Positions 9,424-28,588 of a stretch of 44,666 nucleotides of DNA are shown in pieces (the first letter of the stretch is position 1; each line of letters starts with the position of its first letter). The position numbers and the translations under genes were made by a program. This stretch comes from an uncultured Brachyspira sp. (GTDB lineage: Bacteria; Spirochaetota; Brachyspiria; Brachyspirales; Brachyspiraceae). The stretch is taken from NCBI RefSeq assembly GCF_944390595.1, contig NZ_CALXRN010000032.1, positions 1 to 44,666 of the forward strand. The letters are read 5' to 3'. The notes beneath the pieces were generated by a model. The model was not told the origin of the DNA. It was given only the letters and a program-made list of their open reading frames with translations, and did no database searches.

Positions 9424-12400
9424 ATGAAGATAGTAAATTTTGTAGAATTTAAAATTTTGATTTTGATTTCTTTTGTACTATTTGCATGTGCATCAAGTCA
9501 AAAGAATTCGGACTATGTATTCAGCAGCAGACCATTTTTAAGAGAGTATAAAAGATATTCTCTTACATCCGGAGAGTCTAATCCGGCTTTGGATGCTGTA
9601 ATAGATAGAGAAGGTACTTGGATATATTATACAAGAGAAAATGCCGGAAATACTGACATTTTTGCAGTAGATTCGTATACTCTTGAAGATTACAGACTTA
9701 CTAGAAGTCCTGGTATAGATACTTCTGTTTCTATTGATGACAAATCTAAATATTTAGTATTCTCTTCTACTAGAGATGATGCTTTCGGAGATATTTATCT
9801 TTATAAACTAGTAAATATTTTTGGTGTAAGAACTTCAAAAAATAATTTAGAAAATTTAGAACAAAATATTGTAAGGCTTACAGATTATAAAGGTTATGAT
9901 GAAGACCCTGTAATTTCACATAAGGGAAATCTTATAGCTTTTGTATCAGATAGAGATGCTGGAACTAAAAAGTTATTTACCATGAGAGCTAATGGTAAAG
10001 AGTTAAAAAAACTTTCAGATATAGAGGCAAGTTCTCCGGCTTTTTCTTTTGATGATAGTAAAATAGCTTTTATAACTTCAAAAATAGGAGAGAAATATTC
10101 TCAGTTAGTTGTTTTAGATTTAAATGCTGACACTAATGCAGAAACAAATTTAACTATTCTTACTGATACTAAAACATTCAAATTTAACCCTACATTTTAT
10201 AATGATGATACAATAATATTTTTTGAAATAGAAAGAGATTCAGACAGAGACGGTAATTTAACTTATTATGATAAAAGACGTCTGATGTCATATTCTTTAT
10301 CAACTCATCAGTATTATGTATTGGATGAAGATACAAAATTGAGTACTTTTAATGTAGCGTATCCTTCCAGCTTAGTAGGTGCTTATGTTGTAAGTGAAGG
10401 ATCTACAAGTATAGTAACAATGGGTTCTACAAAAGAGTATTTTATAAAAGATGCTAATGCTAATACTATGTATAGCACATTTACCGAGCTTCCTTATGAA
10501 AGAAAACTTGATGTTATAGATAGATTCTCAGAATATTTTCCTTTTTATGATGATCAAAGCAGTGTAGCTAAAGCATATTTTAATATAATGATATCATCAT
10601 ATACAAATACAAATACTACCGAATATAATAAAGCAATAAAAGTATTAACAGATGAATATCAGGAAACTTTTGCGGGATTTTTAGCATCTAGGATAAATAG
10701 GAATTTTAATACTAATGATAATTGGCTTGATATAAAATATTATACTAATGAGTACTTTTTAACTAATAACAGCAGTGACGAGATTGTTAATTTTGTTTCT
10801 TGGGCTGGATATATATCAGCAAATGAAAAATATAAAGCTAATAATAGAAATGCAAGTACATTAACTATTTTAAGCAATATTATGACATTAAACAATCAAA
10901 AAGATTTATACATGCTTATAGCTAAGTTATATTCACGTTCTGCTGAAGGTAATGGCTATAAATATCATCTTAATGAAAATATTTATAATAATCCTTATAG
11001 AAGAAAAGATTTAATATTTTCTGAAAGGTTAGAGATAGCTAAAGATTTTATAAAAGATACAAAAATTCCTTATGATTCTATATTAACTAATGCACATCCT
11101 TATGCTCCATTATCAGTTGCAGCAAGACTAAAATATTTAGATAGTTTAATACTTTCAAGAAACTATAATGATGCTACAAATTTATTTAAACCTTATATTG
11201 AATCCAGAAATGATATAATGCATGCTTTAGGATATTATGCAAATGCTAAAGTTCTTTTGGCACAAAAAGATGATGGTTCTTATGCTTTGTTTAAGAATGC
11301 TTTAACTTCAGGAGGAAATAATTTCAATTTCACATCTGAAGCTAATGAATGTAAAATTATTTTAGCTAATTATTATAAGTCATTAGCAGATAGTGCGTAT
11401 AATGAAGGAAGATATGCTGTTGCTTATGATAATTATCAGGAAGTATTAAAATATAATCCTAATGATGCTTCTTCATCATCAAAATTAATAGAAAGCGGAC
11501 TTAGAGCATATAGTACTATAGATTCTCTTGAAAAGACTATTGCCGAAAGAGAAAAAAATATCATATCTACAAGGTATTCGGATCATGAAGCAAATGCTGA
11601 GCTTGCTAATGCCTATTATTATTTAGCTAATAGATATTATTCTATGGCTATAGGAAAACAATATAGTCCTGATAGATACGTTTTAAGTGAGAAGAAAAGA
11701 GAAGATGGTTTTTATTTGTATTTGAACAAGTCTTTTAATGCTATAGTTGATAAGGCTAAATCATATATTGATTTTGCAATATTCTTATATCCGGATAATG
11801 AAGATTATTATATAAAAAAAGCGGAGATGCTGACATTTGCACAAGCATTGAAAATGCAGGTTTTACAGGATCAGAAAACATATAAGAGTGTAATAGAACT
11901 TGTACCGGCATATAAAGATGATGCTGTGACTAATGATAAATATATGGGTTATAACATGCTGGCATTTCAAACCGCTAATTTAGATTCTGAAATAATAGAT
12001 TCTCTTATAATGGCTAAAAGTAAGGTTAGAACTAAGCCTAATGTGGTTTCTCTAATGCTTGCTAACTCATATTTAATAAACGGCAGATATTCGGATGCTG
12101 CTAATGAATATAAAGAGGCAGAAAAATTAATTAGACAAGCTGGAAGCGATAAAAGTATGGCTTGGTATCATTTCTTCCATGGTTATTCGCTTTGGATGAA
12201 TAATGATGTAAATGGAGCTTATAAAGAATATGAATTGGCACGTAAATTATTTGAAAAATTGGGTGATAAAGAGTCTGTTTATAAAATAGTAGGATATACT
12301 TCAATAGCAGCAATAGAGCAGGAAGATTATAAAAAAGCTGTAGAATCCCTATTAGAGAGAGATAAGCTTACACAAAACGATGTTGATAAAAATGAACTTA

Positions 12401-15400
12401 ATCAGCTATTGCTTGCGGCATGTTATTTAAAATTAGAAGATTATAATAATGCATTAATGTATTGTGATAATGTAAAAGCTAAAATTGATAGTTTAGATTC
12501 TTCTTTATATACTCCTAATTATTTGAGTATAACTTTTTATGGTGCTAATATTAATATAATAAATTTGGGTTTGGCATCTTTAGGAGGATATATACCTGGA
12601 GAGCCTTTGAATGTTGATAAACAGCAGATGCTTTATTCTATATACCAGGAATTGTATGAGAAGATGGGCAGATATTCTGAAGCAAGAGAGGCTTTATCTT
12701 CTTATAGAAATTATATTATTAAAGATAAGCCTAAAAAATCTATTCAGCCTTTGATGCTCGCTACATATTACAATAATGAAGGTTATTTATATTATCAGCA
12801 GGGTGAACAGTCAAATTCTATTATGTCTTTCAAGGCTTCTATAGAAGAGTATAAAAAAACTTTGGATGAAAAAACACTTGCAAATAATCCTAGTCTGCAG
12901 TATCAAAATGCTGAAAATGATGCTAAGAATTATCTTAGTTTATCATCTTTATATTTAAGATATTTATCAGAAAATGATTTAACTTCTATTAGAAGAGAAT
13001 TTTTTATAGAGCTTTTTAATACTACAAAAACTCTTCAAATATTGTCAACTAATAATGCTGTAAGTACAAAAGATAGATTATTGTTATATTCTCATATAGC
13101 AGCATTTAAATATATAATGGCATTTAAACTTACAGCGGATAATAGTATAGAATATAATAGAAAGAGAAATGATGATCCTACAGATATGACAGATTATGAC
13201 ATAAATATACAAAGATTATCAATGCTTAAAGATGCAATTGACAGATATAAATATATTCTTTCCTCAAACTCTAATTTTCCTGTTGATTTGAAAACAGAAA
13301 TAATAATAAGATATAATTTAGCAAAGGCCTATGAGCTTGCGGGTTATATTGAAGAGGCAGCAAGAGAATATATGTCAGCATTCTCAAAGGCACAGGTTTC
13401 TGCTTTTGCTGTTGAAGAAATAGCTATTCTTACGACATTGATTGATTTTAGCTCTAAATATAGAGACAGATATCCTGATAGTTTAGATTATCCTGTGCAG
13501 TATGTATTTAGAATACTTCAAAGAATTAGAGAAAGCGTATTCATGATAACTTTTGTTGAAGGAAATAATTTTATATTAAGACAAGCAAAATATAAAGTTA
13601 TAGAATTCCTTCAGGATAAATATCCGGATGCAAGTTTGAACATACTTGCTATGTTTGACGCTATTGATATGAGAAGAAAGTTTTTGGATAGAAGACTTTA
13701 TACATTAGGAGAGAATAATTATTATTTAAGAGAATACTATAAACTTTATGAAAAAGCTCTTTATTCATATCAAAGATATTTAAATGCTGTTGCAACTCCT
13801 TATGATAGTAAAACAGAGTCAGCAATGCTCAAAGAAATTTTGAATTATGAAAAAGAGGCTGTATCACAATTTTCCGGTACTCCTATAGAATCAATAGTTA
13901 TATGCGATGTTAAGCCTGAAGATATTGATAGATCTATGCGTAAAGATGAAACTCTAATTTGGGATACTTATTTAGGATATAGATTTGTAAGAGAAAATGG
14001 AAAAACTTCATTCTATATACAAAGCAATGCTATGCCTAAGACAAAAAATTATGTTACTCATATAGGATTCAGACCTATCAGTATAAGCAATAGAAATATT
14101 TTTGTAAGGGAGCTTTATGATTCTACAGAGTATATGCTTCCTCCTAAAACTGCATATATAGATACTAAATTAATTTCGTTCTTTAGAACGGGAAGAAATG
14201 CTGAAAAAGAAATAAATACTATGAGTATGTCAAGCAATACTAACTCTACAAATAATACTTATAGTTATAATACTAATAATTTAGCTATGAATGTAGCCTA
14301 TAATAGTGATACTAATACTATATCCTCAAATGATTCTGTATCTACGAATAGAAGGAGAAGAAGAGGTAATTTTAAATTTATAGAACTTAAAGATATAGTT
14401 ACAAATTCTTATGTTCCTTTAGTTGTTGATATAACAGGTGCAAGTGCTTCTGATATATCAAATGTTATGAGTAAAAATCTTTATATTGTATACAGCGATA
14501 AGGAAACATTTGATAAAAATAGAAGAGTTTTGAGAAATATTAATAATATAGCTTTAGTTGTTGGTAATAGCGGCAAAGATTCTAGAATGATGTTCTATAC
14601 AAATTATTTTAGAAGATTATCAACTAATTCATTAGAAGAAACAATGAAAGGATATGATAATAATTTATTTACTATATATGGCAAGCCGGATTACAGTATG
14701 TCATCATTATCTAATGCAGCTTATGAATTTAAGACAAGACTTTATACATCTTATGATAATAATGCTAATCCTTCTATTTCTATGATGTCAAATGTTATAG
14801 CATATTCTCAAAGTGATGATGAGAAAATGTTTAATTATGCTAAGATTGTTGAAGACAGATATAATGCAAAAGATACAAACACAGCATACATATTTTCTGA
14901 AGAAGGATATAAATTCTTTGCTAGTTCATATAGTAATATAAGTGATTCAAATGCTTATAAATTTATTAAATCAATGCTTCCTGTTTATAGAAGAATGGGA
15001 GAGGAAGGTGCTGTTAAAGGAGCAAACAGAGCATTGCATTTTATATATTTATATACTAATAATAATTATGATTTGATTGATGAATATTTTACTCCTAGAA
15101 CTTTATCAAGATTCTTGAAAGCCAGAGACGATGCAAAAGAGAATGTAAGATATTTAAATTATATAGCAAATAAAGTTGATGGAGATAATAAAGATAAAAT
15201 TCTTGAAGTTGCAGTTCTATATGATTTAATATATGCTAAGACACCTATTGATACGGTAACTAATTTATTGAGCAGAATGAAAAATACTAATGAAATATTA
15301 ACTGTTGCAAATACAATATTAGATAATCAAGTTAGTAATGAAAATGATATATTCAGAACAATGAATTATATTTATGGAAATCAATATATATTTGAAACAG

Positions 15401-16353
15401 AAACTGTATCATCCTTTGCCGATAGATTCTATTCATTATATAAAACTAATTCGGCCTATATATACGGTCTATTAAATAAAATAAGAGTTCCTGGGAGTGA
15501 CTTTAATAATAATATAGAAAATGCTTATGAAATATTTTCTAATGAGAATACTAATACAATGTTTATATTCTATGCCTATGAGAATAATAAATATGTTGCT
15601 TATAGTTATGTTGTAGGCGATTCTGAAGTCAAGAAAGCTAATTTAATTGATATGAAAAAATTAGGCAGCTATTTAGAAAGCTTTACTAATGCTTCAAAAG
15701 CAAGGGATAGAAGAAATGCATTAAAATCTATTGAGGGCGGAATGCTGTCATCAGATATAATTAAAGATTCTCAAAGGGTAGAGAGAATTTATATAACAGG
15801 TTCTTATGCAAATTTATTTACTGTTCCTTTTGCATATTTGAATGCTTTTAAAAACAATGATGTAATAAAAATAAGAGAGTTTAAATATTCTCCTAGCTAT
15901 ATTTTAAATATTGGAAACCCTACTGTTAAATTGAATGTTGGAACTAATTTCTATACTTCATTAGAAACAGCAGCAGTTAAATCCTTTAACAAACCTAAAG
16001 GAAATATTGCATTAACTCATTATATAGGTATAGATACTAATAGAAATAAGCCTTTTAATGATATGGATTTATTCTTATCTCCTGCTAGAAATGCAGATAT
16101 TTTTGGATATTTAAGAGCAAGAAGTGAAACTAAACTTATGTTTACTTACACAACCAATAGTTCAGGCGATTATTATACAGTTATGAAATATCTATATAAT
16201 AACTTTGGAGATGGAATAATAGATGCTTATAGATTTATAAAAACTAATAGAGTTCCTATTAATACTATAAATACAGGCGATAGAAATATCCTTTATGTGG
16301 CTAATTATTCCTTATTTGATTATATATTGCCCGGAATTCCAAGAGATAAATAA
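9424..16353 (+). CDS. Giant lipoprotein: TolB-like propeller, TPR-like repeats, CHAT-like regions
   Basis: The 2,309-residue product begins with a lipoprotein signal ending LFAC (Cys 22), so it should be anchored by lipid in the periplasm or outer membrane. Residues about 50-330 contain repeats such as GTWIYYTRENAGNTDIFAV and LIAFVSDRDAGTKKLFTM, the PD40/TolB propeller pattern. A long helical region (about 390-1480) has TPR-like units, for example NEGRYAVAYDNYQEVLKYNPND. Residues about 1485-1750 and 2035-2309 each resemble a CHAT domain: an entry segment (DETLIWDTYLGYRF; NTMFIFYAYENNKYVAYSYV), an IYITGSYANLFTVPFAYL-like strand in the second, and end segments. The cysteine expected in the SACxT motif is absent (VVDITGAS; FTYTTNSSG), so they look non-proteolytic. 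An Asn/Ser/Thr-rich linker lies near 1592-1650. The domain calls beyond propeller and TPR are inference. Confidence 0.8.
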   Translation: MKIVNFVEFKILILISFVLFACASSQKNSDYVFSSRPFLREYKRYSLTSGESNPALDAVIDREGTWIYYTRENAGNTDIFAVDSYTLEDYRLTRSPGIDTSVSIDDKSKYLVFSSTRDDAFGDIYLYKLVNIFGVRTSKNNLENLEQNIVRLTDYKGYDEDPVISHKGNLIAFVSDRDAGTKKLFTMRANGKELKKLSDIEASSPAFSFDDSKIAFITSKIGEKYSQLVVLDLNADTNAETNLTILTDTKTFKFNPTFYNDDTIIFFEIERDSDRDGNLTYYDKRRLMSYSLSTHQYYVLDEDTKLSTFNVAYPSSLVGAYVVSEGSTSIVTMGSTKEYFIKDANANTMYSTFTELPYERKLDVIDRFSEYFPFYDDQSSVAKAYFNIMISSYTNTNTTEYNKAIKVLTDEYQETFAGFLASRINRNFNTNDNWLDIKYYTNEYFLTNNSSDEIVNFVSWAGYISANEKYKANNRNASTLTILSNIMTLNNQKDLYMLIAKLYSRSAEGNGYKYHLNENIYNNPYRRKDLIFSERLEIAKDFIKDTKIPYDSILTNAHPYAPLSVAARLKYLDSLILSRNYNDATNLFKPYIESRNDIMHALGYYANAKVLLAQKDDGSYALFKNALTSGGNNFNFTSEANECKIILANYYKSLADSAYNEGRYAVAYDNYQEVLKYNPNDASSSSKLIESGLRAYSTIDSLEKTIAEREKNIISTRYSDHEANAELANAYYYLANRYYSMAIGKQYSPDRYVLSEKKREDGFYLYLNKSFNAIVDKAKSYIDFAIFLYPDNEDYYIKKAEMLTFAQALKMQVLQDQKTYKSVIELVPAYKDDAVTNDKYMGYNMLAFQTANLDSEIIDSLIMAKSKVRTKPNVVSLMLANSYLINGRYSDAANEYKEAEKLIRQAGSDKSMAWYHFFHGYSLWMNNDVNGAYKEYELARKLFEKLGDKESVYKIVGYTSIAAIEQEDYKKAVESLLERDKLTQNDVDKNELNQLLLAACYLKLEDYNNALMYCDNVKAKIDSLDSSLYTPNYLSITFYGANINIINLGLASLGGYIPGEPLNVDKQQMLYSIYQELYEKMGRYSEAREALSSYRNYIIKDKPKKSIQPLMLATYYNNEGYLYYQQGEQSNSIMSFKASIEEYKKTLDEKTLANNPSLQYQNAENDAKNYLSLSSLYLRYLSENDLTSIRREFFIELFNTTKTLQILSTNNAVSTKDRLLLYSHIAAFKYIMAFKLTADNSIEYNRKRNDDPTDMTDYDINIQRLSMLKDAIDRYKYILSSNSNFPVDLKTEIIIRYNLAKAYELAGYIEEAAREYMSAFSKAQVSAFAVEEIAILTTLIDFSSKYRDRYPDSLDYPVQYVFRILQRIRESVFMITFVEGNNFILRQAKYKVIEFLQDKYPDASLNILAMFDAIDMRRKFLDRRLYTLGENNYYLREYYKLYEKALYSYQRYLNAVATPYDSKTESAMLKEILNYEKEAVSQFSGTPIESIVICDVKPEDIDRSMRKDETLIWDTYLGYRFVRENGKTSFYIQSNAMPKTKNYVTHIGFRPISISNRNIFVRELYDSTEYMLPPKTAYIDTKLISFFRTGRNAEKEINTMSMSSNTNSTNNTYSYNTNNLAMNVAYNSDTNTISSNDSVSTNRRRRRGNFKFIELKDIVTNSYVPLVVDITGASASDISNVMSKNLYIVYSDKETFDKNRRVLRNINNIALVVGNSGKDSRMMFYTNYFRRLSTNSLEETMKGYDNNLFTIYGKPDYSMSSLSNAAYEFKTRLYTSYDNNANPSISMMSNVIAYSQSDDEKMFNYAKIVEDRYNAKDTNTAYIFSEEGYKFFASSYSNISDSNAYKFIKSMLPVYRRMGEEGAVKGANRALHFIYLYTNNNYDLIDEYFTPRTLSRFLKARDDAKENVRYLNYIANKVDGDNKDKILEVAVLYDLIYAKTPIDTVTNLLSRMKNTNEILTVANTILDNQVSNENDIFRTMNYIYGNQYIFETETVSSFADRFYSLYKTNSAYIYGLLNKIRVPGSDFNNNIENAYEIFSNENTNTMFIFYAYENNKYVAYSYVVGDSEVKKANLIDMKKLGSYLESFTNASKARDRRNALKSIEGGMLSSDIIKDSQRVERIYITGSYANLFTVPFAYLNAFKNNDVIKIREFKYSPSYILNIGNPTVKLNVGTNFYTSLETAAVKSFNKPKGNIALTHYIGIDTNRNKPFNDMDLFLSPARNADIFGYLRARSETKLMFTYTTNSSGDYYTVMKYLYNNFGDGIIDAYRFIKTNRVPINTINTGDRNILYVANYSLFDYILPGIPRDK

Positions 16354-16425: not shown

Positions 16426-16456
16426 ATAAGTATAACAAATGAATACGGGGGATATT

Positions 16457-17182
16457 ATGAAAAAGATATCTATTATAATCAGTATAATTTTTTTAACCCA
16501 AATATCAAATCTTTTTGCAGATTTTAATGCAGGAATAGGTTTTTATATACCGCTTGGGGCATCTATTTCACAGAGCTATCAGGATTATAGATTAGGAGTT
16601 AATAATAATGACGGCAAATTAACATCAGGTGCCGGCTTTGAATGGGGTATAGGAATAACACCTGGTATTTATTCTGGGTTTGATGATTATATGGGGTTTT
16701 CTGTAGCATTAGATATAGCTTATCATAGAGATGTTTATTCATATAAAGAAAGTAAAGCAGCAGGTACTGGAGGAGCATATCAGTCAGTTAATACATCATA
16801 TTATTTTGATAGCTTGGTTATCGGTATTTTGCCTAAATTTAATATAGCTAACTTTTTTATAGGAATAGGTGCTGGAGTAAAAATTCCATTGGCAGGCGGA
16901 GAGTCTACGCAAAATTATAATACTACATATAGTCAATTTGAAAATGCTAATTATTATTATAATTTAAGTGCTTTAAAAGGCAAATATTCTAGTTCTGTAA
17001 TACCGTATATTAAACTTACTTTAGATTATTTATTCTTCTTTAGCGATGATACTGCTATGGGCATTGGATTTTATGCTGGATATGATTTCGGACCAAAAAT
17101 TAATGACTCAAGATTTACTAAAAATGATTTAGGAGCTGTTGATTTAGGAGGTCAAATAAGTTTCTATTTTGTTGATAATTAA
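16457..17182 (+). CDS. Outer-membrane beta-barrel protein (copy A)
   Basis: The 241-residue protein has a signal peptide (MKKISIIISIIFLTQISNLFA) followed by alternating aromatic and glycine-rich strands ending in an aromatic residue near the C-terminus (ISFYFVDN), as in small outer-membrane barrels. Segments such as DSLVIGILPKFNIANFFIGIGAGVKIP and SSSVIPYIKLTLDYLF are shared with the two genes at 27186 and 27905, so the three form one family. The function is unknown; a porin or adhesin role is possible. I chose the ATG at 16457 because GGGGG at 16447-16451 lies just before it. An upstream in-frame ATG at 16439 would put that site inside the gene. It has its own strong promoter and terminator. 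Confidence 0.85.
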   Translation: MKKISIIISIIFLTQISNLFADFNAGIGFYIPLGASISQSYQDYRLGVNNNDGKLTSGAGFEWGIGITPGIYSGFDDYMGFSVALDIAYHRDVYSYKESKAAGTGGAYQSVNTSYYFDSLVIGILPKFNIANFFIGIGAGVKIPLAGGESTQNYNTTYSQFENANYYYNLSALKGKYSSSVIPYIKLTLDYLFFFSDDTAMGIGFYAGYDFGPKINDSRFTKNDLGAVDLGGQISFYFVDN

Positions 17183-21707: not shown

Positions 21708-21750
21708 AAAAGACAGGAGAGTTAAGTAATTAATTCTCTTGTCTTTTATA
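21708..21750 (+). terminator. Terminator after ftsK
   Basis: An 18-bp stem with a few G-T pairs (21708-21725 with 21730-21747, AAAAGACAGGAGAG to TTCTCTTGTCTTTT) is followed by more AT. It could work from both sides. Confidence 0.85.
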
Positions 21751-21845
21751 TTATTTACTTCAAATAAAATTATTTTTTATTTAAACTAGAAAAAAATTAA
21801 TATTGTGTTAGTATTATAGCGTTATAAAAATTATGAGGTTTAATA

Positions 21846-22859
21846 ATGTTATTTAATTTATTTAATAAAAAAGAAAAAACAGATGGTCATTCTAATGAAG
21901 AAGAAGTGAGTTTTTTAATACCGTTAATCGGCGGAAGAGAAAATATTGTAAAAATAAACAATTGTGCTACTAGGTTAAGATTAGTATTGAAAGATGTTAA
22001 TAAAATAAATACAGAAGAAATAAAAAAATATTATCCTGCAGTACAAAAAATTGATGATAAAGAAGTGCATATAGTTGTTGGTACTAATGCAAGTATTATC
22101 GCAGAATTATTAAGAAAGATTGTAGATTCAGATGACAGCCCTTGTAATAGAGCATTAATACTTATTCCATTAATTGGCGGAAGAGAAAATATTATAGAGA
22201 TAAACAATTGTGCTACTAGATTAAGATTACAATTAAAAGATGTTAATAAAATAAATACAGAAGAAATAAAAAAATATTATCCTGCGGTACAAAAGATTGA
22301 TGATAAAGAAGTACATATAATTGTTGGTACAAAGGCTGATTTTCTTGCTGAGGAATTAAAGAATTTAGTTTCAAATAATACATCTGATTTTAATAAAGCA
22401 TTATTGATTCTTCCTTTATTAGGCGGTATTGATAATATTACAAAAGTTGGTTATTGTGCTACTAGATTAAGATTAGAAGTAAAAGATGCTGATAAAGTAA
22501 ATGCAGATGAGATAAAAAAATATTATCCTGTTGTACAAAAGATTAATGATAAAGAAGTGCATGTAGTTGTTGGTACAAAGGCTGATTTTCTTGCTGAGGA
22601 ATTGAAAAAGTTATTAGAAAGTCAAAGCATTAAAACTTCATTGATTCTTCCTTTGGTTGGAGGTATTGATAACATTACAAAAGTTGGTTATTGTGCTACT
22701 AGATTGAGATTACAAGTAAAAGATGCAGATAAAGTAAATACAGAAGAGATAAAAAAATATTATCCTGCTTTAGAGAAAATTAATAATAATGAAGTACATA
22801 TAGTTGTTGGCACCGATGCTAATTTGCTAGCGGATGAGTTTAAAAAATTTGTTATATGA
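21846..22859 (+). CDS. Four tandem PTS EIIB (glucose-type) domains
   Basis: This 337-residue soluble protein is four EIIB domains in a row with no EIIC or EIIA part. EIIB normally takes phosphate from EIIA on a cysteine and passes it to sugar during transport. Each copy has the start xPLxGGxxNI, the phosphocysteine motif CATRLRL (Cys 40, 122, 204, 283) and the end EVHIVVGT. All four cysteines are kept. Copies 1 and 2 share GGRENI and DVNKIN, while copies 3 and 4 share GGIDNITKVGYC and DADKVN, so the array probably grew by pairwise duplication. An ATPase of the UgpC/MalK type begins 61 bases downstream. Without an EIIC, a transport role is unlikely; phosphate sensing or regulation is an inference. 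Confidence 0.9.
   Translation: MLFNLFNKKEKTDGHSNEEEVSFLIPLIGGRENIVKINNCATRLRLVLKDVNKINTEEIKKYYPAVQKIDDKEVHIVVGTNASIIAELLRKIVDSDDSPCNRALILIPLIGGRENIIEINNCATRLRLQLKDVNKINTEEIKKYYPAVQKIDDKEVHIIVGTKADFLAEELKNLVSNNTSDFNKALLILPLLGGIDNITKVGYCATRLRLEVKDADKVNADEIKKYYPVVQKINDKEVHVVVGTKADFLAEELKKLLESQSIKTSLILPLVGGIDNITKVGYCATRLRLQVKDADKVNTEEIKKYYPALEKINNNEVHIVVGTDANLLADEFKKFVI
21909..22856 (+). repeat. Four-copy internal domain repeat (about 240-bp unit)
   Basis: The unit repeats every 246, 246 and 237 bases, judged from the phosphocysteine codons. Long stretches are nearly identical at DNA level, for example the segment encoding EEIKKYYPAVQKI in copies 1 and 2. This makes the array prone to recombination. 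Confidence 0.9.
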
Positions 22860-22920: not shown

Positions 22921-24030
22921 ATGTCAAGCATTAAATTTGAACATATTAGAAAGGTATATGATAATAATGTTGAAGTTGTTAAAGATTTCAATTTATATAT
23001 AGAGGATAAAGAGTTTGTAATATTGGTAGGTCCTTCAGGATGCGGTAAATCCACAACTTTGCGTATGATAGCAGGACTTGAAGATATAACAGACGGCAGG
23101 CTTTATATAGGTGATAAATTAGTAAATGATACGGCACCTAAGGATAGGGATATAGCTATGGTTTTTCAAAATTATGCTTTATATCCCCATATGTCTGTAT
23201 TTAAAAATATGGCTTTTGGTTTGGAGCTTAGAAAAACGCCGAAAGAAGAGATAAAGAAACGTGTTGAATGGGCTGCTAAAGTTCTTGATATATCTCATTT
23301 ATTAAGCAGAAAACCTAAAGCATTATCCGGAGGCCAGCGTCAAAGAGTGGCTTTAGGAAGAGCTATGGTAAGAAATCCGTCAGTATTTTTATTGGATGAG
23401 CCTTTATCCAATCTTGATGCTAAATTAAGAGTTCAAATGCGTACAGAATTAATTAAGCTTCATAAGCAGCTTCAAACTACTTTTGTATATGTTACGCATG
23501 ATCAAATTGAAGCTATGACAATGGGTACTAGAATTGTTGTTATGAAAGACGGAGATATAATGCAGGCTGATGATGCTAAAACTCTTTATAATAACCCGAA
23601 GAACTTATTTGTAGCAGGATTTATAGGTGCACCTCAAATGAATTTTATTAATGCTTTATTAAATAAAAATAATGATAAGTGGCATGCAAATTTTGAGGGA
23701 TATAAAATAGAATTGAATAATGATAAAATATCTAAATTAGATAATTCATATAATGGAAAAGAAGTTATATTAGGAATAAGACCTGAAAATATTACTTTAT
23801 GTAAAGATAACTCTTTAGCATCTTCATCAAATATGATGGAAGGTGTTATCGATGTTATAGAGATGATAGGCTCTGAAAGTTACTTATATATGAAATTTGG
23901 AAATTCTCAAATAATCATACGTACAAATAGTTCTGATGATTATCAAAGAGAACAGCATGTTTTTATTGAATTTGATTTAAATAAGATTCATATTTTTGAT
24001 AAAGATACAGAAGAAAACATTTTAATATAA
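22921..24030 (+). CDS. ugpC: ABC transporter ATP-binding protein (UgpC/MsmK/MalK type)
   Basis: This is the ATPase of carbohydrate-type (CUT1) import systems. The 369 residues show Walker A GPSGCGKST (37-45), Q-loop VFQNYALYPH, the signature LSGGQRQRVALGRA, Walker B VFLLDEPLSNLDAKLR and the switch histidine VTHDQIEA. A C-terminal TOBE/OB-type regulatory domain follows (GIRPENITL), as in MalK, MsmK and UgpC. No binding protein or permease genes are beside it, so it may energise several distant sugar importers, as MsmK-like shared ATPases do elsewhere. It follows the tetra-EIIB gene by 61 bases on the same strand, with GAAGGAAG before its ATG. Confidence 0.92.
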   Translation: MSSIKFEHIRKVYDNNVEVVKDFNLYIEDKEFVILVGPSGCGKSTTLRMIAGLEDITDGRLYIGDKLVNDTAPKDRDIAMVFQNYALYPHMSVFKNMAFGLELRKTPKEEIKKRVEWAAKVLDISHLLSRKPKALSGGQRQRVALGRAMVRNPSVFLLDEPLSNLDAKLRVQMRTELIKLHKQLQTTFVYVTHDQIEAMTMGTRIVVMKDGDIMQADDAKTLYNNPKNLFVAGFIGAPQMNFINALLNKNNDKWHANFEGYKIELNNDKISKLDNSYNGKEVILGIRPENITLCKDNSLASSSNMMEGVIDVIEMIGSESYLYMKFGNSQIIIRTNSSDDYQREQHVFIEFDLNKIHIFDKDTEENILI

Positions 24031-24097: not shown

Positions 24098-25984
24098 ATG
24101 TTTAAAAAAGTATTTTGTATAGTTTCTATCGTTATTTTGGTATTGGTTTTTCATGGATGCAAAAATGCTGCTAATGATTCTGAAAAAGAAAATTTAAGTT
24201 TAAATAATGGAAAAAAGAAATATACATACTTTTTTGATATGAAATATGTTTATAAAGCTGTTAGAGGAGATAAAAATAATTTCAGTAATGCACTTACTAA
24301 TTATTATTATGATGAATCTTACAGCAACATTCTAAATAAAAATAAAGATTTTCTTAATAGAAAACTTGTCGGCGATAATGATATAAAAAAATATTCAATA
24401 GATTTTATATCTAATGCATATCATAATCAATATGAAGCTAAAATAGATGGATTAGATTTGTACGGGGATGATTTTTCTTCATATTATGCTTCCGAATATA
24501 TATATGTTGAGAGAAATTTAGCTTTGAAAAAGGCAAGAGATTTACTTTTAACTATTAAAAATAAAGATGCTGATATTTATTTTGCTTTATTTTTATCTCA
24601 TATGGCTACAGATTCATTATATTATTTTTCAGATATTCAGAATTATTTAAAAGAGTGGAAAAAATCAGGCGGTACCAATATTGATATGATGGTCGGAATA
24701 GTTAATGAACATGATAATATAAATGAAGTTTATTCTAATAAAATGAATTTAATTAATTATATAATAGAGGCACCGGAAGATTTAAAAGCTGAACAATTAA
24801 TTGCTGATGCTTATGAAAAGAATTTTCTAAAATATATATATAAAACAGCAGGTTATTTAGATGTTTATAATGAGAATAATTATAATCTTGCTTCTATAAT
24901 TTATGAAGGTACTGCTCATATTTCATATATTGGTGTTATAAATGATACTGTTAATACTAATATAATGAATAGATACGTAAAAACTTATATTCCAAGAAAC
25001 AGATCATCTAACTATAAAGATTTTTATAATCTTGAAAATTCATCTCCTAAAGAAAAGTACGATGAATTATCAGATTTATATTTTTTAGAGTTTAATAAGA
25101 ATACTTTTGTTTATGCTGTTTATGAAGATAAATTAAAAGAGGTATATTGTTTTAATCCTATGTATATTGGAAATACAAGATATGCATCTTATGATACAGA
25201 AGAAACATTTAATTTTAGATTGGGAGATGATCAAAAATTAAATTCAGCTAATATAACTATGATAAAAACAAATGATTTAAAAGATTTTGTTACTAATTCA
25301 AAGTTTATATCTAATGGAAAATTTAACAGAGATGAATACGCTGAATATTTATATGATATATTATATTTCCCTATATATTACCCAAACTTTTTCTTATGCG
25401 ATATAAATAATGATGGTAAAGAAGAAATAATGCTTACAGGTACTTATGAACATTCAGGAGGAAGAGGAGGTACAGCATCATATACCGTACTTTTGAAAGA
25501 TAATTTAGAATTGGATTTGGAAAGCGTATTAGGAAAATCTTTAAATGGCAGCAGCAGACAAGGATTAAATACTTCTCAAAGATTATATGAGGAGAATGGA
25601 AAAAATAAAATACTTCTTATTGATATGTATGCCAATATGGCTCAGGATATATTTTCTGAAAATGGTGTTGTTAATGTAGATGAGTTTGCATATAAGACTT
25701 ATAAGTTTAAACCGAAATCATTATGGAAAGAAGATATGCTTGACGGACTTTTGAAAACTGATGCTGGTTTCGATATGCTTCATTTAGCAAATAATTATGA
25801 AAAGGCTGTAATATCAGATAAAACTTTGAGAATAGCAGATAAACTTTATTATCAAGAACTTGAAAAATCTAATGCTGATAAAGATGATAAAGCTTTAGAG
25901 GATAAATATTCTCAGATTAAAGATAGTTCCGATATAATGCAGATAGAAAATGAAATGATTAATATATTGGGTATAGATAATTAA
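24098..25984 (+). CDS. Lipoprotein of unrecognised family with a DxNxDG loop
   Basis: The 628-residue protein has a lipoprotein signal ending VFHGC (Cys 21), so it is probably anchored in the periplasm or outer membrane. The rest is rich in Asn, Asp and Tyr. Near residue 434 it has CDINNDGKEEIMLTG, which fits the calcium-binding DxNxDG loop seen in FG-GAP/VCBS and EF-hand-like repeats, followed by a Gly-rich HSGGRGGTASY strand. The beginning and end are mostly helical and charged. I do not recognise the family as a whole. A membrane protein gene starts 2 bases after its stop, so the two are likely translated together. Confidence 0.75.
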   Translation: MFKKVFCIVSIVILVLVFHGCKNAANDSEKENLSLNNGKKKYTYFFDMKYVYKAVRGDKNNFSNALTNYYYDESYSNILNKNKDFLNRKLVGDNDIKKYSIDFISNAYHNQYEAKIDGLDLYGDDFSSYYASEYIYVERNLALKKARDLLLTIKNKDADIYFALFLSHMATDSLYYFSDIQNYLKEWKKSGGTNIDMMVGIVNEHDNINEVYSNKMNLINYIIEAPEDLKAEQLIADAYEKNFLKYIYKTAGYLDVYNENNYNLASIIYEGTAHISYIGVINDTVNTNIMNRYVKTYIPRNRSSNYKDFYNLENSSPKEKYDELSDLYFLEFNKNTFVYAVYEDKLKEVYCFNPMYIGNTRYASYDTEETFNFRLGDDQKLNSANITMIKTNDLKDFVTNSKFISNGKFNRDEYAEYLYDILYFPIYYPNFFLCDINNDGKEEIMLTGTYEHSGGRGGTASYTVLLKDNLELDLESVLGKSLNGSSRQGLNTSQRLYEENGKNKILLIDMYANMAQDIFSENGVVNVDEFAYKTYKFKPKSLWKEDMLDGLLKTDAGFDMLHLANNYEKAVISDKTLRIADKLYYQELEKSNADKDDKALEDKYSQIKDSSDIMQIENEMINILGIDN

Positions 25985-27185: not shown

Positions 27186-27887
27186 ATGGAAGCAATGATG
27201 AAATTAAAACTAAAAGTATTATTTATAACTTTTTTTATATTAATTATTCCTTTTCATAATTTGAAAGCAGCAAATCTAGCGGTAGGCTTTATAAGCCAAT
27301 TTGCATTAAGCGGAGCTAATACAAATGCATCAAAAGTTTTTCCTTCAGGTTTTAGAGACTTTGATTCCGGATTTGCATTTTCCATAGGGGTAAATCAGCC
27401 TATAAACTCATCATCAATGTCTTTTTCTGTTCTTCTTGATTTAGGATATTATCATGATTCTTATGATTTAAGATACACTATAAATGGAAAAAGAGCAACA
27501 GAAAATTATCAGTTTGATAGTTTCCTTATAGGAGGATATGCTAGATTTAATTTTAGTTTTATATCTTTAGGGGCAGGAGGAGGAGTTAAGATACCTGGTT
27601 CTGCTACATATAAATTAGATTCATATAATAAATACAGATTTTATAGATTTAGTTTCGGAGATTTGAGCGATATATTTGAGAGTGCTGTTATACCTTATGT
27701 AAGATTTTCTATTGATTTTAGTATATTTAACTATTGGATGATTGGAGTGTACGCTAATTATGATTTCCCTTTGCATTTTCAGCATAATAACTACATAAGT
27801 GATACAATTATTAATAATAATTCTCTAAGTGCTTTGGATATAGGTATTCAATTCGGATATTATATAAATATTGATTTTAATAAATAA
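27186..27887 (+). CDS. Outer-membrane beta-barrel protein (copy B)
   Basis: The 233-residue protein carries a signal peptide (residues about 1-27, ending LKAA) and short glycine/aromatic strands ending near a C-terminal aromatic pattern. Phrases such as SKVFPSGFRDFDSGFAFSIG, DSFLIGGYARFNFSFISLGAGGGVKIPG and SAVIPYVRFSIDF are close to the next gene (SKVFTSDFRDFDNSFSFQPG) and related to the barrel at 16457. AAGGG at 27174-27178 supports the first ATG. A later ATG at 27198 is possible. The next copy starts 17 bases after its stop. The function is unknown, and a surface-exposed outer-membrane role is likely. Confidence 0.83.
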   Translation: MEAMMKLKLKVLFITFFILIIPFHNLKAANLAVGFISQFALSGANTNASKVFPSGFRDFDSGFAFSIGVNQPINSSSMSFSVLLDLGYYHDSYDLRYTINGKRATENYQFDSFLIGGYARFNFSFISLGAGGGVKIPGSATYKLDSYNKYRFYRFSFGDLSDIFESAVIPYVRFSIDFSIFNYWMIGVYANYDFPLHFQHNNYISDTIINNNSLSALDIGIQFGYYINIDFNK

Positions 27888-27904: not shown

Positions 27905-28588
27905 ATGAAAAACAAGTTTTTTTCATTATTTTTTGTTTTATTTTTTGTATTATCAATTAACAATTTGTACGCTGCAGATTTTATTGCTGGATTTGTAGGA
28001 CGTTTAGGTGCAAGCAGTGCTACAACAGAGAGGAGTAAAGTATTTACTTCAGATTTTAGGGATTTTGATAATTCTTTCTCTTTTCAGCCTGGTATATTTT
28101 GGGGTTATGATGATACTTTATCAAGTGCTTTTTTATTCGATATAGGATATAATAAGGATAGATATCAAATAAAATATAATATAGAAGGAAAAAGAGTTGT
28201 TGAAAATTATAACTTCAGCAGTTTTTCATTCGGATTATTTCCAAGACTTAATATAGGATTTTTCTCTATAGGAGTGGGAGGCGGAATAAAATTACCTATA
28301 TCAATGACTTATAGTTCTAAAGGAAGAGAAGATTCTAATAAATACCGTTTAGATTTTGGGGATATAAAAGATTCTTTTGAAACTTGTTATATACCTTATG
28401 TAAAAGTATCAATGGACTTTTTAATAAAAACTAAGGGCAAATTTATGATGTCATTTGGAGTATATGCTAATTATGATTTTCCTATAGATATAGATAAAAA
28501 TGGAATATTAAAAGATTTTACTATTAATCAAGATTCTTTAGCTTCATTTGATATAGGATTCCAATTTGGCATGTATTTTATAAAATAA
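27905..28588 (+). CDS. Outer-membrane beta-barrel protein (copy C)
   Basis: This 227-residue protein is the closest paralogue of the previous gene. It has a signal peptide ending NNLYAADF and the strand set GLFPRLNIGFFSIGVGGGIKLP, SCYIPYVKVSMDFL-like and YANYDFPIDI. AGGGG precedes the ATG by a few bases. The two genes probably share one transcript. It ends only 12 bases from the convergent galM stop, with no hairpin between them. Divergent loops against conserved strands would fit surface exposure, but that is inference. Confidence 0.83.
   Translation: MKNKFFSLFFVLFFVLSINNLYAADFIAGFVGRLGASSATTERSKVFTSDFRDFDNSFSFQPGIFWGYDDTLSSAFLFDIGYNKDRYQIKYNIEGKRVVENYNFSSFSFGLFPRLNIGFFSIGVGGGIKLPISMTYSSKGREDSNKYRLDFGDIKDSFETCYIPYVKVSMDFLIKTKGKFMMSFGVYANYDFPIDIDKNGILKDFTINQDSLASFDIGFQFGMYFIK

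Follow-up and report, generated by a model that had tools for sequence, protein, structure and literature searches.

A Brachyspira protein of four tandem glucose-type EIIB domains, a possible soluble acceptor of phosphotransferase phosphate

Results

A gene for four EIIB domains between ftsK and an ABC ATPase gene

The window analysed here is a 44,666-nucleotide stretch of a Brachyspira genome (3.02 Mb, 91% complete) whose nearest named relative is B. alvinipulli, at 97% identity. Within it, a gene encoding a 337-aa protein made of EIIB domains of the phosphotransferase system (PTS) is flanked by ftsK and by a gene for a UgpC/MalK-type ABC ATPase. The features of this locus are as follows.

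21708..21747, + strand: terminator-like hairpin after ftsK, parting ftsK from the EIIB gene; 18-pair stem with a T-rich tail (1 found, 0.3 expected in shuffles)
21787..21814, + strand: promoter-like block, conserved; hexamers TAGAAA and TAGTAT 16 nt apart, a TG standing one base ahead of the second (alignment of 19 upstream regions, by eye)
21835..21838, + strand: ribosome-binding site GAGG, 7 nt upstream of the ATG (sequence; kept in nearly all upstream regions)
21846..22859, + strand: four-EIIB gene, 337 aa, ATG start (ORF, PF00367, TIGR00826, AlphaFold2)
21903..22130, + strand: EIIB unit 1; Cys40 codon 21963-21965, His75 codon 22068-22070
22146..22379, + strand: EIIB unit 2; Cys122 codon 22209-22211, His157 codon 22314-22316
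22392..22625, + strand: EIIB unit 3; Cys204 codon 22455-22457, His239 codon 22560-22562
22632..22856, + strand: EIIB unit 4; Cys283 codon 22692-22694, His318 codon 22797-22799
22921..24030, + strand: UgpC/MalK-type sugar ABC importer ATPase (NF008653 UgpC, 477.7 bits, cut-off 432; synteny); its functional link to the EIIB gene is putative only

Profile searches recognize four glucose-type EIIB domains in the 337-aa protein and no other content. PF00367 (PTS_EIIB) matches it four times, at 182.1 bits against a cut-off of 27 and a whole-protein E-value of 1e-54, and NCBIfam TIGR00826 (EIIB_glc) also matches four times, at 123.7 bits against 45.75. Each of the four units retains an intact phosphoacceptor motif, NCATRLR in the first two and YCATRLR in the last two, with the cysteines at residues 40, 122, 204 and 283. 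The Pfam and NCBIfam profiles found no EIIC, EIIA or further domain, and matches to permease profiles are confined to their EIIB part, indicating that the EIIC membrane domain is absent. AlphaFold2 modeling gave four alpha/beta EIIB folds separated by short linkers (mean pLDDT 80), in which the longest helix has at most 17 residues and residues 1-15 are predicted to be disordered (pLDDT < 50); because the whole-chain pTM is 0.47, the mutual placement of the units is not predicted. The best solved matches in Foldseek are the E. coli IIBGlc structures 1o2f (TM-score on target 0.90) and 3bp3 (0.86), and the Mlc-EIIB structure 3bp8 (TM 0.88) is also among the best. An earlier note on this DNA had described four tandem EIIB domains and nothing else, a phosphocysteine in every unit and no transport domains. 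The two profile families, the intact motifs and the lack of an EIIC match bear out each part of that description, and the predicted fold, which the note had named as a point on which its reading could fail, is that of EIIB.

The PTS of the source genome

The earlier note had also regarded a genome lacking EIIA, HPr and EI as an argument against its reading; family searches of the source genome instead recovered EI-type genes, HPr, two EIIA (one of them stand-alone), EIIC and five other EIIB proteins. The nearest transporter is a NagE-type EIICB (TIGR01998, 640.8 bits, cut-off 553.2) that bears its own intact EIIB, and the same searches found no orphan glucose-family EIIC. An EIIC on another contig (C169) was considered as an EIIB-less partner and ruled out, since a separate EIIB-like gene adjoins it. 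Two ROK proteins of repressor length (373 and 411 aa) are encoded. Near the end of contig C99 a short ORF (L006 1471-1677) carries an extra EIIB start, HCVTRMR, and is probably a transporter truncated by the contig end.

Distribution and synteny in Brachyspira

The search for orthologues with two to six EIIB units that the earlier note had suggested returned genes of two to four units across Brachyspira. The multi-EIIB gene is present in 18 of 26 species, with four units in 16 of these, three in one and a gene cut by a contig end in the remaining one; two species have a second multi-EIIB gene, of two units in G009 and three in G015. Because the four-unit gene recurs in 16 species, including some with genomes in one or two contigs, chance or an assembly artefact is ruled out as the source of the architecture.

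A NagE-type EIICB gene, to which an EIIA gene is divergent, is immediately followed by a multi-unit gene in 14 of the 18 species. The two-unit gene of G009 sits between the EIICB gene and the four-unit gene, the gene directly after EIICB in G015 is the second, three-unit one, and in G008 the two are parted by a contig end, a fragment of a unit nonetheless following EIICB. In the alvinipulli group the EIIB gene has moved away from EIICB: in this group, to which the window belongs (G000, G019 and G002, the last placed from its gene positions), it lies with the ABC ATPase gene beside ftsK, and EIIA and EIICB are found together elsewhere. In 11 of the 18 species the next gene after the multi-EIIB gene encodes a UgpC/MalK-type ATPase, and the pair is together at the ftsK site too; in the remaining species oxidoreductase or DusB genes follow.

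All eight species without a multi-EIIB gene keep EIICB, and a tblastn search downstream of EIICB in six of these genomes found no decayed copies. In the EIICB tree the eight comprise two deep lineages and one later clade. This pattern suggests one gain, with or without one loss, in an order that the EIICB tree leaves unsettled.

A promoter-like block upstream of the multi-EIIB genes

A block of the form TAGAAA..ATATT(A/G)TGTTA(G/A)TAT precedes each of the 19 multi-EIIB genes aligned, among them the window gene and the two-unit gene of G009, and is conserved at two genomic sites, one adjacent to EIICB and the other to ftsK. Its reading as a promoter was made by eye, and a consensus scanner does not list it. 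The seven EIICB-EIIB intergenic regions read contain a hairpin followed by T, then the block TAGAAATAAAATAAATATTATGTTAGTATTATA, then the GAGG site. An operon of EIICB and the EIIB gene was rejected for these seven regions, since a terminator-like hairpin and the promoter-like block lie between the two genes.

The tandem units form a distinct class of EIIB

The tandem units are about 50% identical to the EIIB of the Brachyspira EIICB, and with it and E. coli PtsG (EIICB-Glc) they share the EIIB fold, the phosphocysteine and the TRLR motif. Cys421, Thr423, Arg424 and Arg426 (PtsG numbering) are invariant across the tandem units, the phosphocysteine and both arginines being kept in 75 of 75. Position 456, however, is His in all 75, with TQVHIVVG in unit 1 of G021 as an example, and every one of the 23 Brachyspira EIICBs and six E. 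coli EIIBs compared has Gln there. Gln456 is conserved in nearly every EIIB examined, as an observation and not as a formal criterion of the family, and we take it to be Gln70 of IIBGlc, at the active site. Its replacement by His might lower or abolish phosphate acceptance. Further class-specific residues are Lys434, Tyr444, Ile450 and Glu454, and the motifs Tyr-Pro-Ala and Glu-Val-His stand where EIICB and PtsG have Phe-Pro-Gly and Ser-Val-Gln. In a tree the tandem units all fall into a single group, separate from every transporter EIIB (SH-aLRT 100), with weak inner forks because the alignment has only 76 columns. The uniform presence of His456 argues that the units are a specialized EIIB clade of their own and not the products of recent decay.

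Selection and exchange of units

The median dN/dS of the multi-EIIB gene over 105 species pairs is about 0.25, compared with 0.11 for EIICB. These values point to purifying selection on a gene that nevertheless evolves faster than EIICB, under correspondingly weaker constraint; together with the invariance of Cys, Thr and both arginines they argue that the acceptor sites are under selection. In many comparisons the middle units show far smaller synonymous distances than EIICB. The DNA of unit 3 is 100% identical (to rounding) among G019, G023 and G024, whose EIICB genes have dS of 0.57-0.73, and G025 and G007 differ by dS of 0.02 in units 2 and 3 and 0.26 in EIICB. Such low values suggest that middle units have been swapped between species as cassettes. 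An assembly error is unlikely to account for the G025/G007 case, since the G007 assembly has two contigs and that of G025 about 30, and could affect some other near-identical cases, which are metagenome bins. Near-identical middle units in otherwise well-diverged species were seen at loci L011, L019, L021, L022 and L023. The EIIB repeats also seem to break short-read assemblies, as in G008.

Comparison with known EIIB architectures

Several known arrangements resemble the tandem protein in part. NagE-type EIICB and PtsG differ from it in unit number, in the presence of EIIC and in keeping Gln456. A single stand-alone EIIB encoded on a Tsukamurella plasmid is likewise soluble and free of EIIC, but it has one unit, retains Gln and seems to act for an EIIC that has a gene of its own, the EIIB gene adjoining those for EIIA and EIIC, whereas the EIIC neighboring the tandem protein has its own EIIB. 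Two EIIB domains per chain occur in the EIIC-EIIB-EIIB transporters of the spirochaete G316 and of Azospirillum, which differ by their fusion to EIIC. In the G316 transporter (L067 1-2010; L095 3966-8587), whose gene is followed by one for an EIIA-HPr-EI fusion, the first and extra EIIB has His at the Gln456 position and the second has Gln; the His appears to have arisen independently of that in Brachyspira, and three genomes of the same order contained no further tandem. PtsG from a plasmid of Azospirillum lipoferum 4B (L126 768-2552) has a C-terminal second EIIB-like unit in which Cys is lost (FATTRLR), and would be a natural inactive double. The EIIB domain is also duplicated within one protein in fructose transporters (FruA), but that EIIB belongs to another family, provides one extra domain and is fused to EIIC.

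No chain composed only of EIIB units was found outside Brachyspira among 393 genomes of the phylum, for each of which only the best candidates were scored. Beyond the phylum the search covered plasmids and viral contigs, together with a single pattern-based scan of genome contigs; the plasmids gave single EIIBs and the Azospirillum double, with no EIIB-only chain, and the viral contigs no tandem EIIB. Plasmid matches from E. coli were rejected as tandem EIIBs because they are EIICB genes. A literature search found no description of tandem EIIB proteins and no mention of the four-unit protein in the Brachyspira literature that it returned. Single EIIBs, EIICBs and EIIC-EIIB-EIIB chains are thus known or were encountered in these searches, and within their scope the EIIB-only chain appears to be new.

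Discussion

In the PTS, EIIB is the last carrier of phosphate before the sugar. We put at about even the chances that the four-unit protein is a soluble multi-cysteine acceptor of EIIA phosphate that buffers or reports PTS phosphorylation, and not a transport subunit. On this reading it is a soluble accessory to the GlcNAc/glucose-type PTS of Brachyspira. Phosphate would reach it along the route from PEP through EI and HPr to EIIA, encoded divergently to EIICB, and from phosphorylated EIIA the phosphate would pass to the cysteine of each of the four units. The protein would then hold it, buffering the pool of phosphorylated EIIA, or report the phosphorylation state to a partner. Phosphorylation by EIIA, its reversibility, the buffering or signaling role and any partner are what we infer from the data above. 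Holding or reporting is likelier than phosphorylation of an incoming sugar because the protein has no EIIC and its active site is unlike that of the transporter's EIIB. EIIAs of the glucose family in B. subtilis pass phosphate to EIIBs other than their cognate ones (PMC6148471), which makes use in trans plausible. The earlier note had proposed a storage or signaling device that reads EIIA phosphorylation; synteny with EIIA and EIICB, the conserved phosphotransfer residues and purifying selection favor that proposal, which we carry forward as a reading of the sequences. Against an acceptor role stand the dispensability of the gene in 8 of 26 species, its weaker constraint relative to EIICB and the chance that His456 impairs acceptance of phosphate.

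A related possibility is that the units supply additional phospho-EIIB in trans to the neighboring NagE-type EIIC, or to further EIICs of the glucose family, and thereby increase transport capacity. The direct synteny with EIICB is in keeping with such an auxiliary donor, as are the equivalents of Arg424 and Arg426 kept in all units, which Lanz and Erni in 1998 reportedly found to be needed for transfer to sugar. However, EIICB keeps its own intact EIIB, so that extra units are not needed for transport, the source genome yielded no orphan glucose-family EIIC, and the units carry the class-specific substitutions K434, Y444, I450, E454 and H456. The gene has its own promoter-like block, is missing from eight species in which EIICB is kept, and has left the side of EIICB in the alvinipulli group. 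In B. subtilis, moreover, EIIB split from EIIC did not restore growth on glucose (PMC6148471). Since EIICB has its own EIIB, the separated EIIB failed and the active site is changed, a transport role is the less likely one, and we regard the donor reading as unlikely.

Signaling through a bound regulator has a precedent in E. coli, where Mlc is sequestered by dephosphorylated EIICBGlc, making a single dephospho-EIIB a known sensor (PMC3901232). By analogy, the dephospho or phospho form of the tandem protein could bind a ROK repressor, as in Mlc-EIIB, or the UgpC/MalK-type ATPase, with the repeats adding avidity. The two encoded ROK proteins are possible signaling partners, the rank of 3bp8 among the fold matches fits such binding, and the ATPase gene, which comes next in 11 of 18 species, remained beside the EIIB gene where both lie away from EIICB. 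The ATPase neighbor is not universal, though, oxidoreductase or DusB genes taking its place elsewhere, and fast change and unit exchange are atypical of a specific docking hub; such a hub seems to us improbable. Those same dynamics, with unit numbers from two to four, mosaic exchange among units, absence by loss or lack of gain in eight species and a dN/dS twice that of EIICB, would be expected if a duplicated EIIB had been amplified largely neutrally and retained by unequal crossing-over with little function. That account is very improbable given that Cys, Thr and both arginines are kept in 75 of 75 units, that a new His and a Tyr-Pro motif are common to all, that dN/dS is well below 1 and that the promoter-like block is conserved at two genomic sites; the second EIIB of Azospirillum PtsG, which lost its Cys, offers the contrast.

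We advance tentatively, and with more doubt than confidence, that the tandem units are a distinct EIIB class in which His in place of the active-site Gln tunes or shares the phosphate on the neighboring Cys, so that a chain of two to four units is a phosphate store or graded sensor setting the level of phosphorylated EIIA. Such a store or sensor would be a PTS component without counterpart in the studied models. The acceptor reading would more broadly imply that an EIIB branch untied to transport can exist in the PTS, under a promoter of its own and retained by most species of a genus. The sugar regulation of these gut spirochaetes has, to our knowledge, been little studied. One soluble protein with four cysteines and a natural Q-to-H switch would be a simple test system for phosphocysteine lifetime and for valency in PTS regulation.

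Other genes in the window

Three similar proteins of 227-247 aa, secreted or outer-membrane-like and starting with signal-like sequences, are encoded at 16439-17182, 27186-27887 and 27905-28588, and a Pfam search with two of them gave no match; nor did one with the lipoprotein-like 628-aa protein encoded at 24098-25984. A 2309-aa ORF with a lipoprotein-like start, at 9424-16350, has weak matches only, to beta-propeller and TPR families.
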